The notes under the pieces were generated by a model, which did not search any database, was not told the DNA's origin, and saw only the letters and a list, made by a program, of their open reading frames with translations. Positions 5,203-63,827 of a stretch of DNA of 64,000 bases are shown one piece after another. Location: positions 1-64,000 of the IMG/VR virus record IMGVR_UViG_3300042292_000800, one strand, 5' to 3'. This stretch comes from a virus. The translations under genes were made by a program, and so were the position numbers. The first letter of the stretch is position 1; every line of letters begins with the position of its first letter.

Positions 5203-5604
5203 ATGTCACATCCTTTGCATCACAGTATTAGTAGTAAAAAGAAGTGGGGTGGTCACGTTGATGACTACCTCGCTATCCACAATTGGTTTGACGAAACAAA
5301 AATGCACTATCCGGACATGCGCCATAGAGCATTAAGACATCACGCAGAAGGTATATTCTGGTGTGAAGAAAAGTTTGGCACTTATATTATCAATTCTGAT
5401 AGTAAAATGGTTCCTGTAAGAGCAATTGCAGAGCAGCATGTAATGGAAGATATAGGATTTATTCCTACTATCAAAGATTACCTTGACAACATGACACAAC
5501 AAAACTGGATGTATAAGCCAGGTGAAGGTCGTAAAGTATTGAAAGAAATACAAGAAGAAAAATCAGATTACGTATTTAGTAAAAATAAAATTGTAAAATC
5601 ATGA
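5203..5604 (+). CDS. DUF6915-like protein, 133 aa
   Basis: The N-terminal half carries a histidine-rich signature (MSHPLHHSISSKKKWGG; IHNWFDETKMHYPDMRHRA; RHHAEGIFWCEEKFG) and the second half VPVRAIAEQHVMEDIGFIPT. I recall this pattern from the DUF6915 family seen in phages and bacteria; its biochemical function is not known. The several conserved His and Glu residues suggest metal binding, which is an inference. It ends in TGA overlapping the next ATG. Confidence 0.6.
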   Translation: MSHPLHHSISSKKKWGGHVDDYLAIHNWFDETKMHYPDMRHRALRHHAEGIFWCEEKFGTYIINSDSKMVPVRAIAEQHVMEDIGFIPTIKDYLDNMTQQNWMYKPGEGRKVLKEIQEEKSDYVFSKNKIVKS

Positions 5605-18126: not shown

Positions 18127-18582
18127 ATGAGCAATTGGATCTTAACTGAAAGTAATAACAAAGTAATTACTAAATTAGAGGATATACCTAACAATGAGCA
18201 TGTTATAGGTTTTGTTTACAAAATTACACACATTGGAACTGGTAAATTCTACATTGGCAAAAAAAGTCTATTCGCATCAAGAAAGACTGCAATCAGTAAA
18301 AAAGAAAAAGCAACTACTGGTACAAGAAAGCGTACTAAAACAGTTGTAAAAGAATCAAACTGGTTGTCATATTTTGGTAGTTGTAAAGAACTATCTGAAG
18401 AAGTGCTAAGAAATGGAGCACATAGTTATAAACGCGAGATTCTTGAATTGTGTTGTACTAAAAAATACCTGAACTATTGCGAATTAAGTTATCAAGTAAA
18501 ACTTGACGTCTTATCATCAAATAGTTATAATGGTAATATATTAGGCAGATACTTTGCAAGAGATATGCAAAATTGTAAATAA
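18127..18582 (+). CDS. GIY-YIG endonuclease
   Basis: The catalytic GIY-YIG core is visible as GFVYKITHIGTGKFYIGKKS (starting near residue 29), followed by WLSYFGSCKEL, KREILELC and the catalytic glutamate in YCELSYQ. It resembles Seg-type free-standing phage nucleases or T4 endonuclease II relatives, which nick or cut DNA. There is no separate DNA-binding domain in the 151 residues. The stop overlaps the next ATG by 1 base. Confidence 0.82.
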   Translation: MSNWILTESNNKVITKLEDIPNNEHVIGFVYKITHIGTGKFYIGKKSLFASRKTAISKKEKATTGTRKRTKTVVKESNWLSYFGSCKELSEEVLRNGAHSYKREILELCCTKKYLNYCELSYQVKLDVLSSNSYNGNILGRYFARDMQNCK

Positions 18583-20571: not shown

Positions 20572-22554
20572 ATGTCAATGATGTCACGTAATAAGAAATT
20601 TTGGATAATGGATTACGAAACAATTGTAAATTGTTTTGTAGCTGTGTTTACTGGATATTCTTCTGGTGAAACCCGGATCTTTGTTGTAAACAGAGATAGA
20701 AATGACCTGCCTGAGTTTCTTGATTTTTTAGATGAAAACATTGAACATAAAGATTGGCATTTTGGATATAATAATCTTGCATTTGACTCTCAAATAACTG
20801 AATTCATACTTGAAAACAGAAATGAGTTGTCGTATTTGTCTTCTAATGATTTTACAGCAACAATTGCACAATATGCAGGTTCTGTTATTGCAAAATCTAA
20901 TAGAGGAGAATGGTTAGATTATCCAGAGTTTAAGTTGTCTATTCCGTGTGTTGATATATTCAAACTCAACCACTGGGATGGTACAGCAAAAAGATGTTCT
21001 TTAAAATGGATACAGTTTTCTATGGATTGGTTTAATGTTGAAGAGATGCCTCATCATCATACAGAACCGGTTCTTACTGATCAAGTATTAGATTCTATTG
21101 TAAGATATTGTATTAATGACGTAAGGTCAACTAAACAAATATTTGTTCTTCGAAATCCTAAAGGAGAGCAAGTAATGGCAAGTCAAATAAATTTACGTGC
21201 TCAATTGAGTGCAGATTATAGATTAAATCTGTATTCTGCAAGTGAGCCGCGTATAAGTAAAGAGATGTTTCTTCACTTCTTATCTGAAAAATTAGGAAAA
21301 GATAAGAAGGAAATCAGAGTAATGAAGACAGAACGTGATAACGTAGTTGTCAGAAACATTATCTTACCAAGTATCAAGTTTGAAACGCCAGAATTTAATG
21401 GCGTGTTCAACTGGTTCAAAAGTCAAATAGTAAATACTATGATTGACATTGAACAAGCAGAAACAAAAGGTCCTAAATACAGGATGATGTTCAAAGGAGT
21501 TCCTACTGACTATGGTTTAGGTGGTTTGCACGGATGTATCAGATCTGGTATATACAGTGCAGGTAATGGTAAAAAGATTTTGTCTGCTGACGTGACGTCT
21601 TTTTATCCTAATCTTGCTATTAAAAATGAATGGTCTCCAGCGCATATTCCTAAAAGAGACTTTTGTGAACTGTATGAATGGTTCTTTGAAGAGAGAAAGA
21701 AGTATCCAAAAACTTCTCCTTTGAATTATCTATTCAAAATTATATTGAATTCTACTTATGGATTAAGTAAAAATAAGTATTCGTTTTTGTATGATCCTGA
21801 ATTTACTTTCAGAATTACCATCAATGGACAATTACAACTATCAATGTTGTATGAGATGATAGCAACCAGAATCCCTGGTGCTCAACCACTTATGCAAAAT
21901 ACTGATGGTTTGGAGTTTCTTGTAGATGAACAAGATGAAAAGTTATTTTATGAAATCTGTAAAGAGTGGGAAGAGTTGACATCTTTACAACTTGAAACAG
22001 TAGAATATGACAAGATGATTATTGGCGATGTGAATAACTACATTGCTGTATACACAGATGGAAAAACAAAATGCAAAGGTCGTTTTGAATTTGAAGAGCT
22101 GGCACTTCATAAAAACAAATCTCATCTAATAATACCAAAAGCGTTGTATGCATATTTCATATTTGGAAAAGATCCAAAAGATTTTTTACAAGAAAATAGA
22201 AATATATTTGACTATTGCGCAGGAGCAAAACTAAAAGGAAATTGGTTCTTTGAAAAAAGAGGTGTAGTAAATGGTGAGTATCAAGTAGAAAAACTGCAAA
22301 GACTTGTTAGATATTATATTTCCAATACAGGAGTCAAGCTAATTAAGTGTAATCCGGATGGTCGCGAAATACAATTGGAAAGTGGTAAGCACATGCAGAC
22401 AATATTTAATCTGCATGAAGAAAAACCATGGGACCAATATGATATAAACGAAAAGTATTATTTAGATAAGATTTATGATGAGATTCAAAAGATAGAGAAG
22501 TCATCTATCATATTACCTCAAGATAAAGTAAATCAACAATTAAGTCTCTTTTAA
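20572..22554 (+). CDS. Family B DNA polymerase with 3'-5' exonuclease domain
   Basis: Replicates the genome. The N-terminal exonuclease shows IMDYETI (ExoI, D14/E16), FGYNNLAFDSQ (ExoII) and YCINDVRSTK (ExoIII). The polymerase motif A is DVTSFYPNL (D340), motif B is KIILNSTYGL (K389-L398), and motif C is NTDGLEF (N443-F449) where DTDS is usual; the catalytically essential second Asp is kept as D445. At 660 residues it is compact: only about 50 residues separate motifs A and B, so the fingers are short. No protein-priming insertion is obvious. Confidence 0.92.
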   Translation: MSMMSRNKKFWIMDYETIVNCFVAVFTGYSSGETRIFVVNRDRNDLPEFLDFLDENIEHKDWHFGYNNLAFDSQITEFILENRNELSYLSSNDFTATIAQYAGSVIAKSNRGEWLDYPEFKLSIPCVDIFKLNHWDGTAKRCSLKWIQFSMDWFNVEEMPHHHTEPVLTDQVLDSIVRYCINDVRSTKQIFVLRNPKGEQVMASQINLRAQLSADYRLNLYSASEPRISKEMFLHFLSEKLGKDKKEIRVMKTERDNVVVRNIILPSIKFETPEFNGVFNWFKSQIVNTMIDIEQAETKGPKYRMMFKGVPTDYGLGGLHGCIRSGIYSAGNGKKILSADVTSFYPNLAIKNEWSPAHIPKRDFCELYEWFFEERKKYPKTSPLNYLFKIILNSTYGLSKNKYSFLYDPEFTFRITINGQLQLSMLYEMIATRIPGAQPLMQNTDGLEFLVDEQDEKLFYEICKEWEELTSLQLETVEYDKMIIGDVNNYIAVYTDGKTKCKGRFEFEELALHKNKSHLIIPKALYAYFIFGKDPKDFLQENRNIFDYCAGAKLKGNWFFEKRGVVNGEYQVEKLQRLVRYYISNTGVKLIKCNPDGREIQLESGKHMQTIFNLHEEKPWDQYDINEKYYLDKIYDEIQKIEKSSIILPQDKVNQQLSLF

Positions 22555-22556
22555 AA

Positions 22557-23372
22557 ATGAAAAGAACAGTAAATGGCATGATTGCCTATGGTAAAATGTT
22601 AAGCACACCATTACCAGCAAGAACAAAAACATATACTCCTATCTCTCACAAAGACGTTGTCAGTCGTGTGAGAGCAGAAATAGCTGCAGCAGGATATATA
22701 ATTACTGGCGAAGATTACAAGTGCACACAAGATGGCACTGTAGCAATTGGAAATTTTAAATTGAATTATAAAGCGGATCCAGATGTTGAGTTATCTGCAA
22801 ACTTTATGAATTCATATAATAAACAATATGCATTTAGATTCTCACTTGGAGGATTGGTAAAAGTATGTATGAACGGTATGATGTTATCAAACAGTAAGTT
22901 TGGGGCATACAAACGCGTTCACAAAGGTGCTGCAGATATACTTGCAGCTGGTAAAATCTCTGAGTTTATAAAAGATTCAGAAGAGTATTGGACAACATTG
23001 ATACAGCATAAAGATGCTTTAAAAGATCGAATTGTAACAAAACCAATTGCATTTATTATTCTTGGTAAATTATTCTTTGAACATGAATTACTGACAACTA
23101 TGCAGTTAAACATGATTAAGAAAGAAATGGAAAAACCAAGTTTTGAATACAATGCAGATCCTGATAGTGCTTGGGTATTGTATAATCACATTACTCTCGC
23201 ATTAAAAGAAGCACATCCTTCTACCTGGATGGATGATCAAGTAAAAATGCATCAAGTATTTTGTGACACTTTTGGTATAGACATTGATTCTGATACAGAA
23301 CCTGAAGAAGACAGTGCCGGTTATACAGTTGCTGATCGAGAAGAGGAAATAGAAGAACTATTACCATTTTAA
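22557..23372 (+). CDS. DUF932-like protein
   Basis: The middle (ANFMNSYNKQYAFRFSLGG, VKVCMNGMMLSNSKFG, YKRVHKGA) matches the pattern of DUF932 proteins (N S.D...A......RVVC.NG......) found in phages and plasmids beside replication genes. They are suspected to help DNA replication or anti-restriction but have no proven activity. The tail is acidic (EPEEDS, EEEIEELL). The gene starts 2 bases after the polymerase stop, and a terminator follows. Confidence 0.65.
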   Translation: MKRTVNGMIAYGKMLSTPLPARTKTYTPISHKDVVSRVRAEIAAAGYIITGEDYKCTQDGTVAIGNFKLNYKADPDVELSANFMNSYNKQYAFRFSLGGLVKVCMNGMMLSNSKFGAYKRVHKGAADILAAGKISEFIKDSEEYWTTLIQHKDALKDRIVTKPIAFIILGKLFFEHELLTTMQLNMIKKEMEKPSFEYNADPDSAWVLYNHITLALKEAHPSTWMDDQVKMHQVFCDTFGIDIDSDTEPEEDSAGYTVADREEEIEELLPF

Positions 23373-23411: not shown

Positions 23412-23669
23412 ATGAAAATAAATGAGCAATTGCAAGACATGATAGATCTTAAAACAAGATTACAAAAAGTACAAGAAAAAATAGAACTTTTAAATTCAGA
23501 ACCAATGGTTGATGTTATATTACAAGCAATTATCAAAGTGAGTAAAAAAGATACATCTCACAATGTAGTTCAGTTTACAAAGCGATATCTACGTAGATAT
23601 TACAATATCGATATAGATTCAAAATCGGTAAGAGACAGAATAAAATCAATAACAAAACAATTAAAGTAA
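23412..23669 (+). CDS. Hypothetical basic helical protein, 85 aa
   Basis: ATG 23412 is taken as start because upstream in-frame codons fall in the terminator hairpin. The first 40 residues look like a coiled coil (DLKTRLQKVQEKIELL) and the C-terminal half is basic (TKRYLRRYYNIDID, RDRIKSITKQLK), suggesting DNA binding. The last base is shared with the next ATG. Confidence 0.55.
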   Translation: MKINEQLQDMIDLKTRLQKVQEKIELLNSEPMVDVILQAIIKVSKKDTSHNVVQFTKRYLRRYYNIDIDSKSVRDRIKSITKQLK

Positions 23670-23887
23670 TGACAAAAAATTTAAAACTTGACCAAGCATT
23701 ATCACTTTTGCAAACTGGTAATACTGTAACCAGAAATGAATGGAAAACAAGAGGTGAATTTCTTTATAGTGCAGATGAAGGTAAAACTATTGAGTTAAAA
23801 AATGCAGAAGGAACAATTGATCCAAATTGGCAACCTGACGAAATTGATACAATCGCTGAAGATTGGGAAATGATTAATTCTTTATAA
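23669..23887 (+). CDS. DUF2829/Tad2-like anti-Thoeris candidate
   Basis: A 72-residue protein whose landmarks match DUF2829: L..AL.LLQTGNTVTRNEW near the start, a short GEFLY strand, then NWQPDEIDTIAEDWEMI at the end (family pattern: F.EAL..L..GK.V.R..W ... W.PS..D..AEDW..V). The family includes Tad2, which sequesters the cyclic ADP-ribose signal of Thoeris immunity. Identity here is by motif only, and many DUF2829 members are untested. Length is typical. It lies 1 base ahead of the kinase gene and is coupled to the previous one. Confidence 0.6.
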   Translation: MTKNLKLDQALSLLQTGNTVTRNEWKTRGEFLYSADEGKTIELKNAEGTIDPNWQPDEIDTIAEDWEMINSL

Positions 23888-23888
23888 G

Positions 23889-24611
23889 ATGATTATAGGT
23901 ATAAATGGTAAAATAGGATCTGGTAAAGACACTATTGGAGAAATTATACGAGGTCTTTGTTTAACAAATAAAGATCAAGTATTTGAAATCAAAAAGTTTG
24001 CTGGTAAACTAAAACAAATTGGCAGTATACTATCAGGTATTCCTGTAGAGAAATTTGAAGACCAAGAGTTTAAACAAAAACATATGGGTCTTGAGTGGGA
24101 AATGACATACAGAGAGTTTCTTCAAAAACTTGGTACAGAAGCAATGCGTGATGGATTACATACAAATGTATGGGTAAATGCTTTGTTTGCTGATTATAGA
24201 CTATGGAGTGATGGAAGTAAAGATTGGTATCCAAACTGGATTATAACAGACATGAGATTTCCTAATGAGATGGAAGCTATTGTAGAGAAAGGTGGACTCA
24301 CTATTAGAGTGGTTAGAAACAATAATGCTAAATACTCAGATAAGAAAGTTAAATCCATACTTAAAGATATGGGTTATGTTGACTTATCAGATGGTGTTTG
24401 GGAAGAATTGGCTATCAATGAAGGATTCACCTGGTTTGAAACATTTAAGTTATGGACATGGGATGAAGATGATAACAATAATGAAGCTTTGCATCCTTCA
24501 GAAACAGCATTAGATGATGCTGAGTTTGATTATGAAATTATCAATGATGGTTCTATTGAAGATCTTGTAACAAAAGTTAGAGAAATACTAACAAAAGAAA
24601 ATATAATATGA
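23889..24611 (+). CDS. Deoxynucleoside monophosphate kinase
   Basis: Phosphorylates dNMPs to dNDPs. The N-terminal P-loop is INGKIGSGKDTIGE (K13, D14), and the later body (FAGKLKQIG, RELEFLQKLGTEAMR-type block near residues 75-90, and IITDMRFPNE) is the arrangement of the T4 gene 1 kinase and its phage relatives. Length 240 residues is in the family range. It overlaps the downstream phosphatase gene by 4 bases. Confidence 0.8.
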   Translation: MIIGINGKIGSGKDTIGEIIRGLCLTNKDQVFEIKKFAGKLKQIGSILSGIPVEKFEDQEFKQKHMGLEWEMTYREFLQKLGTEAMRDGLHTNVWVNALFADYRLWSDGSKDWYPNWIITDMRFPNEMEAIVEKGGLTIRVVRNNNAKYSDKKVKSILKDMGYVDLSDGVWEELAINEGFTWFETFKLWTWDEDDNNNEALHPSETALDDAEFDYEIINDGSIEDLVTKVREILTKENII

Positions 24612-25336
24612 AAACATTTGTAATAGGAGATGTGCACGGTAATCATCGTGCACTTCTACAATGTCTTGAGAAATCAGGATTCGATAAAGAAAATGACAAA
24701 TTAATATCGCTTGGCGATATTGCAGACGGTTGGAGCGAGGTTTCTGAGTGTGTTGACACTCTGTTATCAATTAAAAATTTGATTGCCATACGAGGCAATC
24801 ATGACGTTTGGTGTTATGATTGGTTTGAATACGGAAGAACACCTCTTATTTGGTCAGCGCAAGGTGGTGCTGCGACTATGGAAGGTTATGTTCGCACTGG
24901 TAAACTTGTTGAACAGTCTCATAAAGATTTTTGGAAAAACCAAATAGACTATTACATTGATGATGAAAACAGATTGTTTATTCATGGCGGATGGGATTAC
25001 ATGGAAGGATTTCCACGTGGTGCAATGTTGTCAGTAAATGCAGGAAGTCTTGCTAAAGAATGTCATTGGGACAGAAGTTTATTAATGGGTGCTAAATCTG
25101 CATTTGGTAACAAGATGTCAAGAAATGGTAAGTTCAAAGCACTTGAAGAATTTAAAGAAATCTACATTGGACACACTGCAGAAAATGATGGACCTAATCA
25201 GTATGGAAATCTATGGAACCTGGACACAGGTGCTGGATGGAATGGTAAACTTACAATCATGGATGTTGACAGTAAAGAGTTTTGGCAATCTGACTTTGCT
25301 ACTTTATTGTATCCTGAAGAACGCGGAAGAGGATAA
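24608..25336 (+). CDS. Serine/threonine protein phosphatase-like metallophosphatase
   Basis: The protein-phosphatase blocks appear in order: FVIGDVHGNHR (D8, H10), ISLGDIADGW, IRGNHDVWC, then FIHGGW and YIGHTAEN as the later metal-ligand histidines. This is the pattern of phage lambda-type phosphatases, which remove phosphate from proteins or small molecules with two metals. It is 242 residues long and overlaps both the dNMP kinase (4 bases) and the radical SAM gene (1 base). Confidence 0.87.
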   Translation: MKTFVIGDVHGNHRALLQCLEKSGFDKENDKLISLGDIADGWSEVSECVDTLLSIKNLIAIRGNHDVWCYDWFEYGRTPLIWSAQGGAATMEGYVRTGKLVEQSHKDFWKNQIDYYIDDENRLFIHGGWDYMEGFPRGAMLSVNAGSLAKECHWDRSLLMGAKSAFGNKMSRNGKFKALEEFKEIYIGHTAENDGPNQYGNLWNLDTGAGWNGKLTIMDVDSKEFWQSDFATLLYPEERGRG

Positions 25337-26187
25337 TGGAAATAAAAAAACAGAAAACAAAAACTTTAGTTACCAGAGATAATGGGAGGAGTAGCGATGC
25401 TATTTCTCCCAATTTTATTTATGGATGTTTAGGTGGATGCATGAAATCGTATTGTTATGTAGGTAGATTTAACAACAACAAGTTATTTCTAAATGAAAAC
25501 ACAGAACAAATATTAGCATCTATAAACAAATGGGCAGAACCACAGCCAATGCCTAAGATACCTAATCAAATTGATGACAAGTATTACTGTATTGATATTG
25601 GATGCAGTACGGATGTAGCATTACATGGTAAATATTACCAGTGGCAACAAGTGTTTGAGTTTTTTAACACGCATCCAAAATTAAAAAGCACTTTTGCTAC
25701 AAAGTATCCTACTAAATTTAGATTAGATGATTATACTCTGGTTCCTGGTAAACACAGGATCAGAGTAAGTTTGATGCCTCAGAAATATGCAGATGTACTG
25801 GAACCAAATACAGATAGTATTGCTGATAGAATTGCAATGATTCCTAAGCTGCAAGAGAAGATGGAAGTACATATTAATTTTAGTCCTATCATATATGAAG
25901 AAGGATGGTTAGACGAGTATATAAATCTTTTTGAGTTACTAAAAACTGCAGGTATTAATGTACCATGCGAATGTATCTTCTTGACGTATAATGATACATC
26001 TTATCAGAACGCAGATGACGCTGTAAACGCCTTGTGCTGGAAACCAGAAATACAAGAAAAGAAAGATTCGCAATATGCTGCAGATAACATTAGATACAAA
26101 TATCAGTTAAAAGCAAAAATGATTGATGATTTTAAAAAACTGTATGCTGAGTATTTTGATCCTAAAAACATTAGGTATATATTTTAA
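25336..26187 (+). CDS. Radical SAM protein, spore-photoproduct-lyase-like
   Basis: The iron-sulfur site reads YGCLGGCMKSYCYVGR (C31, C35, C40) and the following (D)IGCSTDVALHG and later HINFSPI and CECIFLTYND follow SPL-like radical SAM proteins. The cysteine spacing is CX3CX4C rather than the usual CX3CX2C, an insertion of two residues. Members of this group repair thymine spore photoproducts or have unknown DNA or nucleotide substrates. It closes a three-gene coupled set with the kinase and phosphatase, and a bidirectional terminator follows. Confidence 0.65.
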   Translation: MEIKKQKTKTLVTRDNGRSSDAISPNFIYGCLGGCMKSYCYVGRFNNNKLFLNENTEQILASINKWAEPQPMPKIPNQIDDKYYCIDIGCSTDVALHGKYYQWQQVFEFFNTHPKLKSTFATKYPTKFRLDDYTLVPGKHRIRVSLMPQKYADVLEPNTDSIADRIAMIPKLQEKMEVHINFSPIIYEEGWLDEYINLFELLKTAGINVPCECIFLTYNDTSYQNADDAVNALCWKPEIQEKKDSQYAADNIRYKYQLKAKMIDDFKKLYAEYFDPKNIRYIF

Positions 26188-58616: not shown

Positions 58617-61600
58617 TTAATCTTCAAAAAAGTATAAAGGTAATGCACCAAAATCAAATACTACACCACCATATTGTTTTTTTACTTTTCCACCATATTT
58701 TGATTGTCTTGGCGCAGGTAATGCTTGTCCAGATAGAATAGCATTACGACCAGCAGTTTTATTATCAGCTACAGCAGCTTTACCATTTACTTCTGCATTT
58801 GCAGCATCTATCGCGTCTGACGCACTAAAACCTTGACTTTTCCAATATTTTACTCGATCTTCAAATATATATCCTGATTTACTATTTTTACCAGTTGGGT
58901 CTGCAGGATTAATATACGGATCATACACAGGTCTACCTTGTGCATCAAACATTTGTCTGCCATCTTTAAAAGTTACATCACCTGTATTACGATCAATATC
59001 GTAATTAAACATGTCAGATAACTGATTAGTTCTTTGCCAGTTTGTAGTACCATTATTCCAAGCATCAAGCTGTCTCCATTTTAATGCACGTCTGGCATTA
59101 TCATATTGTTGTCTTGCTGTTACTGATTGACCAATGTAATTTTGTAATGAGTTTGCATTTAAAATCTTTTCTTGATTATTAATTCCAGCAATGTTACCAG
59201 AAAATCGATTAAAAATATTTGAATTTTGATTTTCAACATCACCAATAATATTTGCAGCTTGACCAAGTCTTTGATTTGATGGCGCAACTTGAGATGCACC
59301 AGCAACATTACCTGCTGTTGTATTGTATGCAGCTTCTCTATCAGCAGCAGCAGCTTCTTGCATCGCAGCAATTCTTCTATCAGGATCAAGCAATGCGTAA
59401 CGAGGAGTTTCTAAATCAACTTGAGTTAATGCAGGAGGATAATAACCAACATTGTCAGTAAGTGTACCAGCAAAGTTTACTGCATCTTGTATCCACCAAG
59501 GTCTTCTTGGTTTTGGTTTTTCTTCAACTACTTCTTGTTTACCATTACATCCTGCTTCAGCTTCTTCACGTGTATTGTAAGAACCTGCAGGCATCTCTCC
59601 TTCATATTCAAATTGATATATTTCTTTTACACCGGTTACAGGATCTTGTCTACATGACCATGCTCTTTTTTTCTCTGGTATTGGTTCAGGTTTGTCTTCT
59701 GGTTTCTTAGCAGTCATTGCTTCTAAGAAAGCATTGTGAAATGGACCTGGATCACCATCTGTAGCAAGTTCTAATATCTTATCATAACGTGCTTGACCTG
59801 TTAAACCTTGTAATTGATAAAGTATGTTTGGACCATATTTACCTTTAGCTGCAACATTGGTTAAATAATCATCAATTGCTTTAGCACTTTCTGAATTTAA
59901 CATTGCTTGTTGAGCTTTTGGTTTCCACACTTTGTCATAATTTTGTGGCTTCCAGTCTTCATATGTTGCTTTTTCTTTTGAAGTACTTGGTAATCTTTTT
60001 ACACTGGATGGTTGAAATTCATAGTTTGGATCATTATTTGCAATTACTTGCTTATTAGGATCTCCTGTGGAAACTGCTGCTACAGAACCATTTTGAATTC
60101 CTTGTGCTGTAGTTGCCATAAAGGGTTGAGATGCAGCAGTTGGTGCAGCATCTGCAGGAAATAAACTTGCAAGTTCAGCTGGTAATTCAGGATTGGCAAC
60201 ATTTGTATTTGTAGCAACAGGTGGAATATTAACAGATGTACTTGCAGATGTTGCTGCAGGATTAGCAACAGCATCCATTGCTTGTTGATCAAGAGATGGA
60301 GTTGCGGAAGTTGAAGTTGCAGAATCACTTTTTGATTTATCTTCACCACTAAACAGGTCACTAAAAAAGTCACCTATACCACCAAAAAATCCGTTTGATG
60401 AACCATCATCCATCATTGAAGATCCAGAAGCATCGCCAACTGTGCTTGGACCAGTATCACCTTGATGTTTTGGTAAATATCCACCATGTCTATAACCTGG
60501 AAGCGGTTTACCATTAATAAAAGCTTCATGCGTTCCGTCTGGATAAAAAATTCTTATTGTATCACCCATTTTAACAGCAGAACCTTCTTGACCTTTAAAC
60601 TTTCCACTTGGTATAATAAACTTTGGAAATGTTTGCATTTTACCAGAAACTCTTTTAGCAGGTTGCTGTGTTACCTTTGTGTTTGGTGTTACTACAGTTT
60701 TTGCTGCAGGTTTGCTGTTATCTTCTTTTACAACAACTTTTGTTGTTAGAGTATCTTCTTCAACTACTTCTTCTTCAGCAGTATCTACCCAATCTTTTGC
60801 ACCAGCAGTTTCAGCATCTGCTTGTGTAGTACCGGCAGCTGCTTCAGGAACTACGGTTGGAGCTATACCAACAATTTTGTTAAACTCGTCAATAGGAATT
60901 AACTTCTTGCCAAATTTAGTATCAAAGAAAGAACCAATGTTTTGATCTGGATCATCAATTTGTTCTACACTTACAGCTTGTCTATTACCAGCTGCTGAAC
61001 CATAAGGACTGTATACATCAGAAGCAACAACTTTATATTTTTTGTTACCTTGTGTAAATGTATATCCAGGTTTCATTTGTGGTTTAACTGCAGGTTTTGC
61101 AGTAGCAACAGGAGCTGTAGGAGAATAATTAATTGTATTATATTTCACACCTCTACCAATATCAAATATAGATCTATCTTGATTCCACCAAGTAAGATTG
61201 CTAATATCTGTATAGTTATTTGGTTGAATTAAATTATCTGTCAATCCCATTTTAAGAGACTTTTTTGCAGTTAATTTTTTCCAATCAGAAAGTGTCATTT
61301 CAGTCATTGTATCAGGATTACCATCCTCATCAATTACTTGAATAGGTTTTTCAAATTGAACCCACATATCGTTTGCATCATCTCCATCACTATCATTATC
61401 AACATCAAAGAACCCTTCATAAGTTTTTACAATTCTATTCGGTTTACCATTTATATAAAACGTACCAGGAGCAGGTGCTGCAGGTTTAGGTTTTGCTTTT
61501 GGTTTTGGTTTAACTGTACCTGCTTTTTGGTACATAGCCATTCCACCATAACGCATTTGACCTTCTTCTCCAGCAGCTTCTCTACCTTCCATTGCTTCTT

Positions 61601-62207
61601 CAGGCATACCCTCACCTTGTCCTTGCAATCCTGCCATAACAGATTGTGCAATTGCAGGTACTCCATCAGGAAATCCTTTCATTGATTCTTGCACCAATGC
61701 TAACATGCCAAGTTTCTCAAGATTATTTTTTAACATCTGAGAAGCAGTACGCTTTGATACAGGATCTGTTGCATCATCCTTTAGAATATTCATGTAGTTA
61801 TTCATAGGATATTTTTGTGCAATCTTTGCTGGTGTAACACCACCTTTGTCAAATTTGGTAATACCAAAAATAGAAAGTACTTCAGGATCTTTAATCTTTA
61901 ACTTTTTTGTGTCAGAGAATATAAATGAACCAGGTGCAACATTAAGAGGCACACCGCCTTCAGTATGTCTTTTACCAACAATTTTACTATGTTCTAAAAA
62001 ACCATCATTGTTGATATCACCGATTACAGTTTCTCCACCTTCAGCTTCTATATTAGCTTCTTCACGTGGAACTGCACTGATAGTGTTTTTGACATTACTG
62101 TCTTGGTTAATTGGATTTACTTTGATATATAAATCATTTCTATCAACTAAACTGTAGTTACGTTGATCACCATTTTTTGGAAGTTGTTTTATTCTAATGT
62201 TGTACAT
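58617..62207 (-). CDS. Large 1196-aa structural-type protein with LPKHQG motif
   Basis: The N-terminal 160 residues (ETVIGDINNDGFLEH, GKRHTEGGVPLNV, GSFIFSDTKKL) follow a pattern I know from Bacteroidota phage virion proteins of unknown role. The centre is Pro/Ala/Lys-rich and repeated, including a lone YLPKHQGDTGPSTVG (Y577-G591) that recurs in the 508-aa protein, and a Ser/Asp-rich stretch. The C-terminal 300 residues are Asn/Ala/Gln-rich, and RYGG/KYGG motifs occur near both ends. A candidate promoter lies just upstream. It is probably virion-associated. Confidence 0.5.
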   Translation of the reverse strand: MYNIRIKQLPKNGDQRNYSLVDRNDLYIKVNPINQDSNVKNTISAVPREEANIEAEGGETVIGDINNDGFLEHSKIVGKRHTEGGVPLNVAPGSFIFSDTKKLKIKDPEVLSIFGITKFDKGGVTPAKIAQKYPMNNYMNILKDDATDPVSKRTASQMLKNNLEKLGMLALVQESMKGFPDGVPAIAQSVMAGLQGQGEGMPEEAMEGREAAGEEGQMRYGGMAMYQKAGTVKPKPKAKPKPAAPAPGTFYINGKPNRIVKTYEGFFDVDNDSDGDDANDMWVQFEKPIQVIDEDGNPDTMTEMTLSDWKKLTAKKSLKMGLTDNLIQPNNYTDISNLTWWNQDRSIFDIGRGVKYNTINYSPTAPVATAKPAVKPQMKPGYTFTQGNKKYKVVASDVYSPYGSAAGNRQAVSVEQIDDPDQNIGSFFDTKFGKKLIPIDEFNKIVGIAPTVVPEAAAGTTQADAETAGAKDWVDTAEEEVVEEDTLTTKVVVKEDNSKPAAKTVVTPNTKVTQQPAKRVSGKMQTFPKFIIPSGKFKGQEGSAVKMGDTIRIFYPDGTHEAFINGKPLPGYRHGGYLPKHQGDTGPSTVGDASGSSMMDDGSSNGFFGGIGDFFSDLFSGEDKSKSDSATSTSATPSLDQQAMDAVANPAATSASTSVNIPPVATNTNVANPELPAELASLFPADAAPTAASQPFMATTAQGIQNGSVAAVSTGDPNKQVIANNDPNYEFQPSSVKRLPSTSKEKATYEDWKPQNYDKVWKPKAQQAMLNSESAKAIDDYLTNVAAKGKYGPNILYQLQGLTGQARYDKILELATDGDPGPFHNAFLEAMTAKKPEDKPEPIPEKKRAWSCRQDPVTGVKEIYQFEYEGEMPAGSYNTREEAEAGCNGKQEVVEEKPKPRRPWWIQDAVNFAGTLTDNVGYYPPALTQVDLETPRYALLDPDRRIAAMQEAAAADREAAYNTTAGNVAGASQVAPSNQRLGQAANIIGDVENQNSNIFNRFSGNIAGINNQEKILNANSLQNYIGQSVTARQQYDNARRALKWRQLDAWNNGTTNWQRTNQLSDMFNYDIDRNTGDVTFKDGRQMFDAQGRPVYDPYINPADPTGKNSKSGYIFEDRVKYWKSQGFSASDAIDAANAEVNGKAAVADNKTAGRNAILSGQALPAPRQSKYGGKVKKQYGGVVFDFGALPLYFFED

Positions 62208-62300: not shown

Positions 62301-63827
62301 TTATTTATTAATGAATTCTATTTCTGCACCATTCTGCATAAGTTGTAATAACTCGTCTTCTGATACTTGATATTCACCACCTTCTTTATATGATTGACCA
62401 CCATATTTGAATGAACCACCGTATCTTCCATAAGTACCACTATCTTGTACAGGAGTGGTCATGCCTAATTGGAAATTATTTGCAGGACCAACATTTAATG
62501 TATAATCACCAAATGGATTAGGACTGTTTGAAGCAAGTCTAAAATCAGTATTACCAACACGTTCTAACATCTTTTCATATTCGTCTCTTTCTTTTTGGTC
62601 ATTTTGCCATGTTTTGTAATCTCTAAATGCACCAAGTCCCATGAGTCCTTTTTGTGCATATTCCATTCCATTAAAAGGTTTTTCACCTTCACCAGCACCA
62701 GCATTTGGGTTAGCTTTTTTCTTCGCAGGTTGTTGCGGTTGTTGTTGTTGTTTTTTTGCTTTATCACATTCGCTTCCTGGTGGACATTGATTAGGATCTG
62801 CATTATAAGCATTGTTGTCTTGTTTATATGCTTGAAAGTATCCTTCATTGTAATCAGTAGATCCATCATTCATCATCATTCCTGCTTCTCCACTGCCCAT
62901 ACCACCGTCACCACCACCAACAGTACTTGAACCAGTGGTTCCTTGATGTTTAGGAAGATATCTACCATATTTATTAATCAAATCAGGTTTGTAACCTTCA
63001 TCTTCTGGATTAATTGGTATTTTAGTAGAGTCTGCTTTTTGTACAGCTGCACCTTTAACTACAGGATTTTGAGTAGGAAAAGTAACAGGTTGTTTTCTAT
63101 TAGCAGCTGCTTGTCTATTAGCAGAATTTTGACCATTAGTAGAAATACCACCAGCAGTTACACCAAAATCAACAATACCTTTAAAAGTATTATTTGCAGT
63201 ATCCATTACACCATTAAAACCATCTTTTAACCCACCATCTGGCAATACTTTGTTACCTAACCATTGTGCAGATTTACCCCACCCTAATGCAGATGCACCA
63301 AGACCTGCCGCAAGTCCCATGTAACCAGTAACAGCTTTCAGTGGACCAAGAAATTTTGAATCTCCAATTGATGTTTGTAGAGCAGGTGCAATATATGGAA
63401 CGCCACCAACACCACCTGCAGCACCTCTATAACCAGCACCACCTGTTTGACTATAACTGTTTGTACCACCTGGTGCAAACTGTGGCATGCTTTCCATTTC
63501 ACTAAACTCATCATTAGCTGCGTAAGATGTTGGAGCTGACTGTTGTTGTCCAGCACCACCTTGTTGTAATTCTGCAACCATATATTGTAATGCTTGTTGC
63601 TGTTGTGACTCATCAAGTTGTTGCAGTTTCTGAATAATCATTTCAGGTTGAGCATTGTGCAATTTTGCATACATTGCAATTATTTGCATAATTTGTTTTT
63701 GCTGTTCTCCACCCTGCTGTGCTTGATATAAATCACCACCATATTCTAAAACAGTTAATGGATTTGCAAAATATTCGTATGGTAATACAAATTTATTTTT
63801 TTCGCATTCGTGACAAGTTTTACTCAT
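62301..63827 (-). CDS. 508-aa Gln/Gly-rich structural-type protein with LPKHQG motif
   Basis: Starts MSKTCHECEKNKF (CxxC), then a Gln-rich helical part (QQKQIMQIIAMYAKLHNAQ, QQLDESQQQQALQYM) and Gly/Ala-rich hydrophobic stretches (GYMGLAAGLGASALGWG). YLPKHQGTTGSSTVG (Y290-G304) is shared with the 1196-aa protein. The C-terminus repeats YGGSFKYGGQSYKEGG. This composition suits an assembly or injection-associated virion protein. Identity unknown. Confidence 0.5.
   Translation of the reverse strand: MSKTCHECEKNKFVLPYEYFANPLTVLEYGGDLYQAQQGGEQQKQIMQIIAMYAKLHNAQPEMIIQKLQQLDESQQQQALQYMVAELQQGGAGQQQSAPTSYAANDEFSEMESMPQFAPGGTNSYSQTGGAGYRGAAGGVGGVPYIAPALQTSIGDSKFLGPLKAVTGYMGLAAGLGASALGWGKSAQWLGNKVLPDGGLKDGFNGVMDTANNTFKGIVDFGVTAGGISTNGQNSANRQAAANRKQPVTFPTQNPVVKGAAVQKADSTKIPINPEDEGYKPDLINKYGRYLPKHQGTTGSSTVGGGDGGMGSGEAGMMMNDGSTDYNEGYFQAYKQDNNAYNADPNQCPPGSECDKAKKQQQQPQQPAKKKANPNAGAGEGEKPFNGMEYAQKGLMGLGAFRDYKTWQNDQKERDEYEKMLERVGNTDFRLASNSPNPFGDYTLNVGPANNFQLGMTTPVQDSGTYGRYGGSFKYGGQSYKEGGEYQVSEDELLQLMQNGAEIEFINK

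Follow-up and report, generated by a model that had tools for sequence, protein, structure and literature searches.

The gene described here, a tad2-like gene of the PF11195 family, lies at positions 23669-23887 (+ strand) of the window, the 64,000-nucleotide stretch of viral DNA that was analysed. It encodes a protein of 72 residues from an ATG start codon, exactly as given in the initial annotation, and it is the only PF11195 match found by profile search in the whole 72,002-base virus record. The genes around it are those of a replication block, as had been proposed. They comprise a DNA polymerase (20572-22554, + strand; phrog_1252, E 5e-134), a DUF932 protein (22557-23372, + strand; PF06067, E 6e-7), a winged-helix-like ORF, a deoxynucleoside monophosphate kinase (dNMP kinase; 23889-24611, + strand; phrog_139, E 2e-46; PF21448, E 8e-12) and a metallophosphatase. 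The winged-helix-like ORF (23412-23669, + strand), which the DUF932 gene separates from the polymerase, starts at ATG 23412 or at the alternative TTG 23376, and its match to Rep3_N (E 0.007) is below the cut-off. The stop codon of this ORF overlaps the start of the tad2-like gene in the sequence TAATG, and a gap of 1 bp separates the tad2-like gene from the kinase. Prediction of RNA structure around the tad2-like start codon gave nothing of note.

The best named matches of the polymerase, at about 33%, are in Sasha-like, Vibrio and other phages. An early assignment of the virus to the crAss-like phages, based on a match of the metallophosphatase to Cellulophaga phages, was dropped on the results for the polymerase and the structural arm. 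This arm (30885-63827, - strand) contains very large ORFs of 3843, 1961, 1608 and 1196 residues, and the two of its ORFs that were compared with named phages (58617-62207 and 62301-63827) gave no match. The early region is poorly matched except for a 133-residue protein at 5203-5604 (DUF6915, E 6e-44). Both a dUTPase and a protein of the uracil-DNA-glycosylase superfamily are encoded by the phage (7303-7746 and 13039-13776). The gene at 18127-18582, found between the primase and an exonuclease-VIII-like gene in nearly all relatives, matches phrog_447 'NAD synthetase' (E 2e-30), but in Pfam it matches a SegE-type GIY-YIG endonuclease (E 1.4e-26), and the phrog_447 label looks wrong. A 283-residue protein of the spore photoproduct lyase family (25336-26187; PF20903, E 3.5e-10) is also present in this phage; it is 79-89% conserved in several relatives, in which its neighbours are much more diverged.

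Sequence searches located the tad2-like gene on four contigs; three are near-identical to the window and the fourth is L004. The L004 orthologue has about 90% DNA identity to the window, with 79% identity of the Tad2-like protein. The two genes differ at 36 nucleotides, 17 of them at third codon positions, and these differences change 15 amino acids and introduce no stop codon. When the 36 changes were placed at random 5000 times, they caused 25 amino acid changes on average, created a stop codon in 4440 of the placements, and never resulted in 15 or fewer amino acid changes. The small number of amino acid changes and the absence of stops, compared with the random placements, establish the ORF as a real gene. 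It is under purifying selection, yet evolves faster than the core genes, with a dN/dS of 0.29 against 0.04 for the polymerase and 0.08 for the phosphatase. There is no sign of positive selection in this value.

The polymerase was used as the anchor to fetch 80 related loci. The order polymerase, DUF932 protein, winged-helix-like ORF and dNMP kinase recurs in many of them, and the family profile detected a Tad2-like gene only in three contigs that were already known. Among the relatives compared, the gene is confined to the window and three near relatives. In L130, whose polymerase and DUF932 protein are 97% and 99% identical to those of the window, the slot is empty: the frames of the winged-helix-like ORF and the kinase overlap by ATGA with nothing between them. 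Aligned to this empty site, the left flank of the window ends at 23663 and the right flank starts at 23889, and the gene is carried by a 225-bp insertion (23664-23888, + strand). The slot of L131 is empty as well. Other loci have different genes in this position, namely a 35-residue ORF with CxxC pairs in L134 and L136, an HNH-type ORF of 177 residues in L197 (9103-9636) and a GIY-YIG-type ORF of 193 residues in L200 (9127-9708), the latter two types being judged by sequence motifs and not by profile. The contents of the slot in L197 and L200 suggest that turnover at this junction is driven by homing endonucleases. The dNMP kinase is itself a mosaic. Its DNA alignment between the window and L004 is interrupted between 24317 and 24513; the two kinases have 58% protein identity with 67 gap positions, while the flanking genes are 79-99% identical. 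Because the site is empty in close relatives, is occupied by other genes elsewhere and has mosaic surroundings, the tad2-like gene counts as accessory: it is a recent, clean insertion into a variable slot and has left the translation of both neighbours coupled. Its patchy presence and absence is typical of counter-defence cargo.

The protein had been assigned to DUF2829 from motifs at its start and end. Both motifs, 'LDQALSLLQTGNTVTRNEW' and 'NWQPDEIDTIAEDWE', are present, and membership in the family is borne out by the profile search as well as by the modelled fold. PF11195, formerly DUF2829 and now called 'Thoeris anti-defense 2-like domain', scores 45.5 bits (E 1.1e-11) against the protein, where the curated cut-off is 25, and the match spans residues 7-68 of the protein and positions 3-72 of the 73 in the profile. 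The PHROGs collection gave only weaker matches, to families with no assigned function and to one bearing the label 'transcriptional regulator' (phrog_643, weak), and no match was found in NCBIfam. A phmmer search of the PDB with the window protein retrieved SPO1 Tad2 (8sme), ModTad2 (8v3e, 9eib), HgmTad2/AcrIIA7 (8kbi) and SptTad2, all weakly; with the L004 orthologue, the E-values of these Tad2 structures ranged from 3e-7 to 3e-5. The phmmer list for the window protein was headed by designed WRAP/WD40 proteins, which were discarded as repeat artefacts composed of many pieces of 3-5 bits. Homologues in named phages are at most 33% identical, and SPO1 gp34.65, which is Tad2 itself, is one of them. 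PF11195 is rare in Bacteroidota genomes (2 of 395), with nothing close to the window protein among them.

The AlphaFold2 monomer model of the window protein, calculated with an alignment of 75 sequences taken from IMG/VR loci, has a mean pLDDT of 92.1 and a pTM of 0.80. It is comprised of a helix (residues 7-15), three strands (19-22, 31-35 and 40-44), a second helix (58-62) and a final strand (66-70). A Foldseek search of the PDB retrieved 24 chains, all of them Tad2, SptTad2, ModTad2 or HgmTad2/AcrIIA7, with a probability of 1.00 and E-values of 1.6e-4 to 7e-3; the next chain is unrelated and has an E-value of 1.3. TM-scores to the Tad2/AcrIIA7 structures, normalised to the query, are 0.72-0.81. 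The matches in BFVD are again Tad2-like proteins, including short ones of 60-75 residues. Since only Tad2/AcrIIA7 structures match significantly in the PDB and the BFVD matches are also Tad2-like, the assignment of the modelled 72-residue protein to the Tad2 fold is firm.

According to a review (PMC12043709), different protomers contribute to the ligand pocket of SPO1 Tad2: one lines it with its beta1-beta2 and beta3-beta4 loops and with beta4, another with its beta1-beta2 and beta4-alpha3 loops and with helix alpha3. Helix alpha2 helps to form the V-shaped dimer of SPO1 Tad2, and other Tad2 proteins bind cyclic dinucleotides at a site within the insertion between beta2 and beta5 (PMC12043709). 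The pocket residues of the window protein were judged by conservation and by the list of pocket-lining loops in that review, not by ligand contacts, and the conservation columns were derived from 72 relatives with the window's own clade left out. On these grounds, the GWNGKGM and PSQTD turns of the family would correspond to the pocket-lining loops of SPO1 Tad2.

As to the Tad2 pocket residues, whose absence would count against the initial annotation, the outcome is mixed. The core residues R22, W25, W54, D60, D65 and W66, invariant or near-invariant in the relatives, are kept, but each of the two turns has had its signature residues replaced. The beta1-beta2 turn (codons 23-30, NEWKTRGE; 23735-23758, + strand), which is GWNGKGM in canonical Tad2, retains none of G24, N26 and G27 (each conserved in 95% of the 72 relatives), K28 (90%) and M30 (80%). 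The turn before the last helix (codons 55-60, QPDEID; 23831-23848, + strand), which is [LV][AP]SQTD in canonical Tad2, retains neither S57 (91%) nor Q58 (72%), and T59 is replaced too. In the window protein, G24, N26, G27, K28, S57 and Q58 are replaced by E, K, T, R, D and E, respectively. The GWNGK turn is common to all solved members and WNG is found in 101 of 112 aligned relatives; the corresponding segment is RNEWKTRGE in the window protein and RNDWKKRGM in L004. At the tight turn of codons 36-39 (23774-23785, + strand), canonical Tad2, including every Tad2 sponge with a solved structure, has about 20 extra residues, which represent helix alpha2 or the cyclic-dinucleotide site. The model joins strands 31-35 and 40-44 directly, with no alpha2 insertion, and the beta2-beta5 insertion that contains the cyclic-dinucleotide site of the HgmTad2/SptTad2 type is absent. 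The spacing from F31 to W54 is 24 residues in the window protein, 43 in both SPO1 Tad2 and ModTad2, and most commonly 45. The window protein has kept the scaffold of the family, with its two most conserved turns rewritten and the alpha2 insertion lacking. The initial proposal holds as far as family and fold are concerned; a sponge for cyclic ADP-ribose signals would be a further step, and the sequence gives no support for gcADPR specificity.

The ligands of those members of the fold family that have been solved are signals derived from ADPR or cyclic dinucleotides (PDB entry titles; PMC12043709; PMC13299392). SPO1 Tad2 (gp34.65; PDB 8SME/8SMF/8SMG), a gcADPR sponge directed against type I Thoeris, has the PF11195 domain, as does the window protein, and its apo chains have TM-scores of 0.78-0.80 normalised to the latter. 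The two proteins have the same order of elements except in the alpha2 region and a common core, R-x-x-W...W...D...AEDW. They differ in length (89 and 72 residues), in an insertion of about 19 residues found only in SPO1 Tad2, and in both turns, where GWNGKNM and PSQTD of SPO1 Tad2 are replaced by EWKTRGE and PDEID. ModTad2 (PDB 8V3E/9EIB), from a prophage of the Bacteroidota member Myroides odoratus, binds His-ADPR against type II Thoeris (PMC13299392). Its fold matches the window protein with E 5e-4, but it has GWNGKGM and the insertion, and the tree groups it with SPO1 Tad2. HgmTad2/AcrIIA7 (PDB 8KBI-8KBM) and SptTad2 (8WJD), which bind cADPR isomers and/or cyclic GG, match the window protein in fold; their cyclic-dinucleotide site is in the beta2-beta5 insertion, which the window protein does not have. 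The family itself is known, and Tad2-like genes turn up routinely in new phages (for example PMC13299392); more unusual here are the loss of the signature turn and of the insertion in a gene under selection, and the documented empty site.

The short members of the family were compared in an alignment of 112 members, a biased sample of related rows gathered with motif patterns. A spacing of 25 residues or less is found in the window clade, csAssE-Sib, Staphylococcus phage 47, Delraymugoa and L045. All of these are without the WNG turn, and D or E precedes the tryptophan wherever the turn is readable in the alignment. The turn of Staphylococcus phage 47 is gapped there; its own sequence reads RKDWKES. 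WNG is lost only rarely in members with a spacing of 27 or more (Mann-Whitney p ~1e-6 for the 112 related rows); the p-value overstates the case because of the motif-pattern sampling and the relatedness of the rows. Loop length alone was rejected as a diagnostic, as forms of 74-81 residues keep WNGK (JSF38, N1M2, MR4, Yubaba, L089 and L094). A wider alignment for the pattern search was abandoned because the sequences were too diverse. In the poorly resolved tree, the window clade forms a long branch that falls outside the group of SPO1 Tad2 and ModTad2.

The other short forms with a degenerate turn, Staphylococcus phage 47 ORF052 and those of csAssE-Sib, Escherichia phage Delraymugoa and L045, resemble the window protein in spacing, in the absence of WNG and in the acidic residue before the tryptophan. 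They are, however, only about 25-32% identical to it and possibly represent independent lineages. In csAssE-Sib, from the human gut (L019:4446-5201), a 252-residue protein ends in a short Tad2-like domain whose turn is degenerate in the same way, so that fusions of the short form to another domain exist too. To our knowledge, no short PF11195 form with a degenerate turn has been characterised; experiments have covered only a minority of PF11195 proteins. A tentative and rather unlikely proposal is that PF11195 proteins of the shortest type, which have R-x-[DE]-W and are devoid of the alpha2 insertion, constitute a separate functional class and hold an immune signal, or a kind of target, that differs from those of the known Tad2 sponges; the window gene would then be the first of them seen as swappable cargo.

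The window protein is probably a divergent, short Tad2-fold counter-defence protein that binds a nucleotide-type signal. Counter-defence is the best explanation because the gene is small and accessory, has a fold that in its characterised members serves to hold immune signals, is patchily distributed in close relatives and is under purifying selection. A sub-lineage of the phage would have gained a minimal Tad2-fold gene as an accessory between the winged-helix-like and dNMP kinase genes. Two or more subunits may assemble via helix 1, with the pocket formed by the beta1-beta2 turn and by the C-terminal turn and helix. This pocket would bind and hold a nucleotide-derived alarm molecule of the host, and the benefit to the phage would be counter-defence. 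The chances are about even that the role is of this type, sponge-like or otherwise ligand-binding, with a possibly altered ligand. Because both turns are rewritten and the alpha2 insertion is missing, the ligand is probably not bound in the way that SPO1 Tad2 binds 1''-3' gcADPR, and the subunits probably form a dimer or a tetramer of another kind. The loss of the GWNGK turn, of S57/Q58 and of the alpha2 insertion, and the long branch of the clade, count against this explanation.

A classical Tad2, in which an SPO1-like tetramer sequesters 1''-3' gcADPR, or His-ADPR as in ModTad2, and blocks Thoeris, would agree with the fold, the family and the conserved core, and with the L004 orthologue, which still has RGMFLYL after the tryptophan. 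It is nevertheless quite unlikely for a protein in which G24, N26, G27, K28, S57, Q58 and T59 are all replaced and the insertion involved in SPO1 Tad2 dimerisation is missing. Reuse of the Tad2 fold for a purpose other than holding a small molecule, for instance binding of a host or phage protein or a role as a small regulator, is a possible, if unlikely, alternative. The shortest forms of the PF11195 family, with R-x-[DE]-W rather than R-x-G-W, would be such a class, and the consistent absence of WNG from the short members, when nearly all others keep it, is in line with this; so are the Staphylococcus phage homologues annotated as 'transcriptional regulator', the label also carried by phrog_643. 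That label, however, is an annotation for which we know of no experiment, the retrieval by motif patterns biases the sample, and a ligand pocket could still depend on the conserved R/W/D/DW core.

The co-directional arrangement and the translational coupling on both sides could point to a function in DNA replication or nucleotide metabolism together with the polymerase, the DUF932 protein and the dNMP kinase. Such a function is very improbable, as the slot is without the gene in nearly all relatives that keep those three genes, including L130 with its closely related polymerase. The recent insertion in a variable slot independently favours an accessory role of the counter-defence type over one in replication. 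It is scarcely credible that the gene is only the decaying, functionless relic of a Tad2 sponge: the family's signature turn and insertion have indeed been lost, but the gene is under purifying selection and intact in four contigs, and the random placements never gave as few amino acid changes.

Phage proteins of PF11195 are now routinely labelled 'Thoeris anti-defense 2-like'. The label may mislead for the short forms, because the window protein is a member that keeps the fold although the conserved turns and the insertion, which are associated with ligand binding and assembly, are gone. Should the short form turn out to bind a signal, the Tad2-like family would have in it its smallest sponge, and a signal not yet covered would be indicated.
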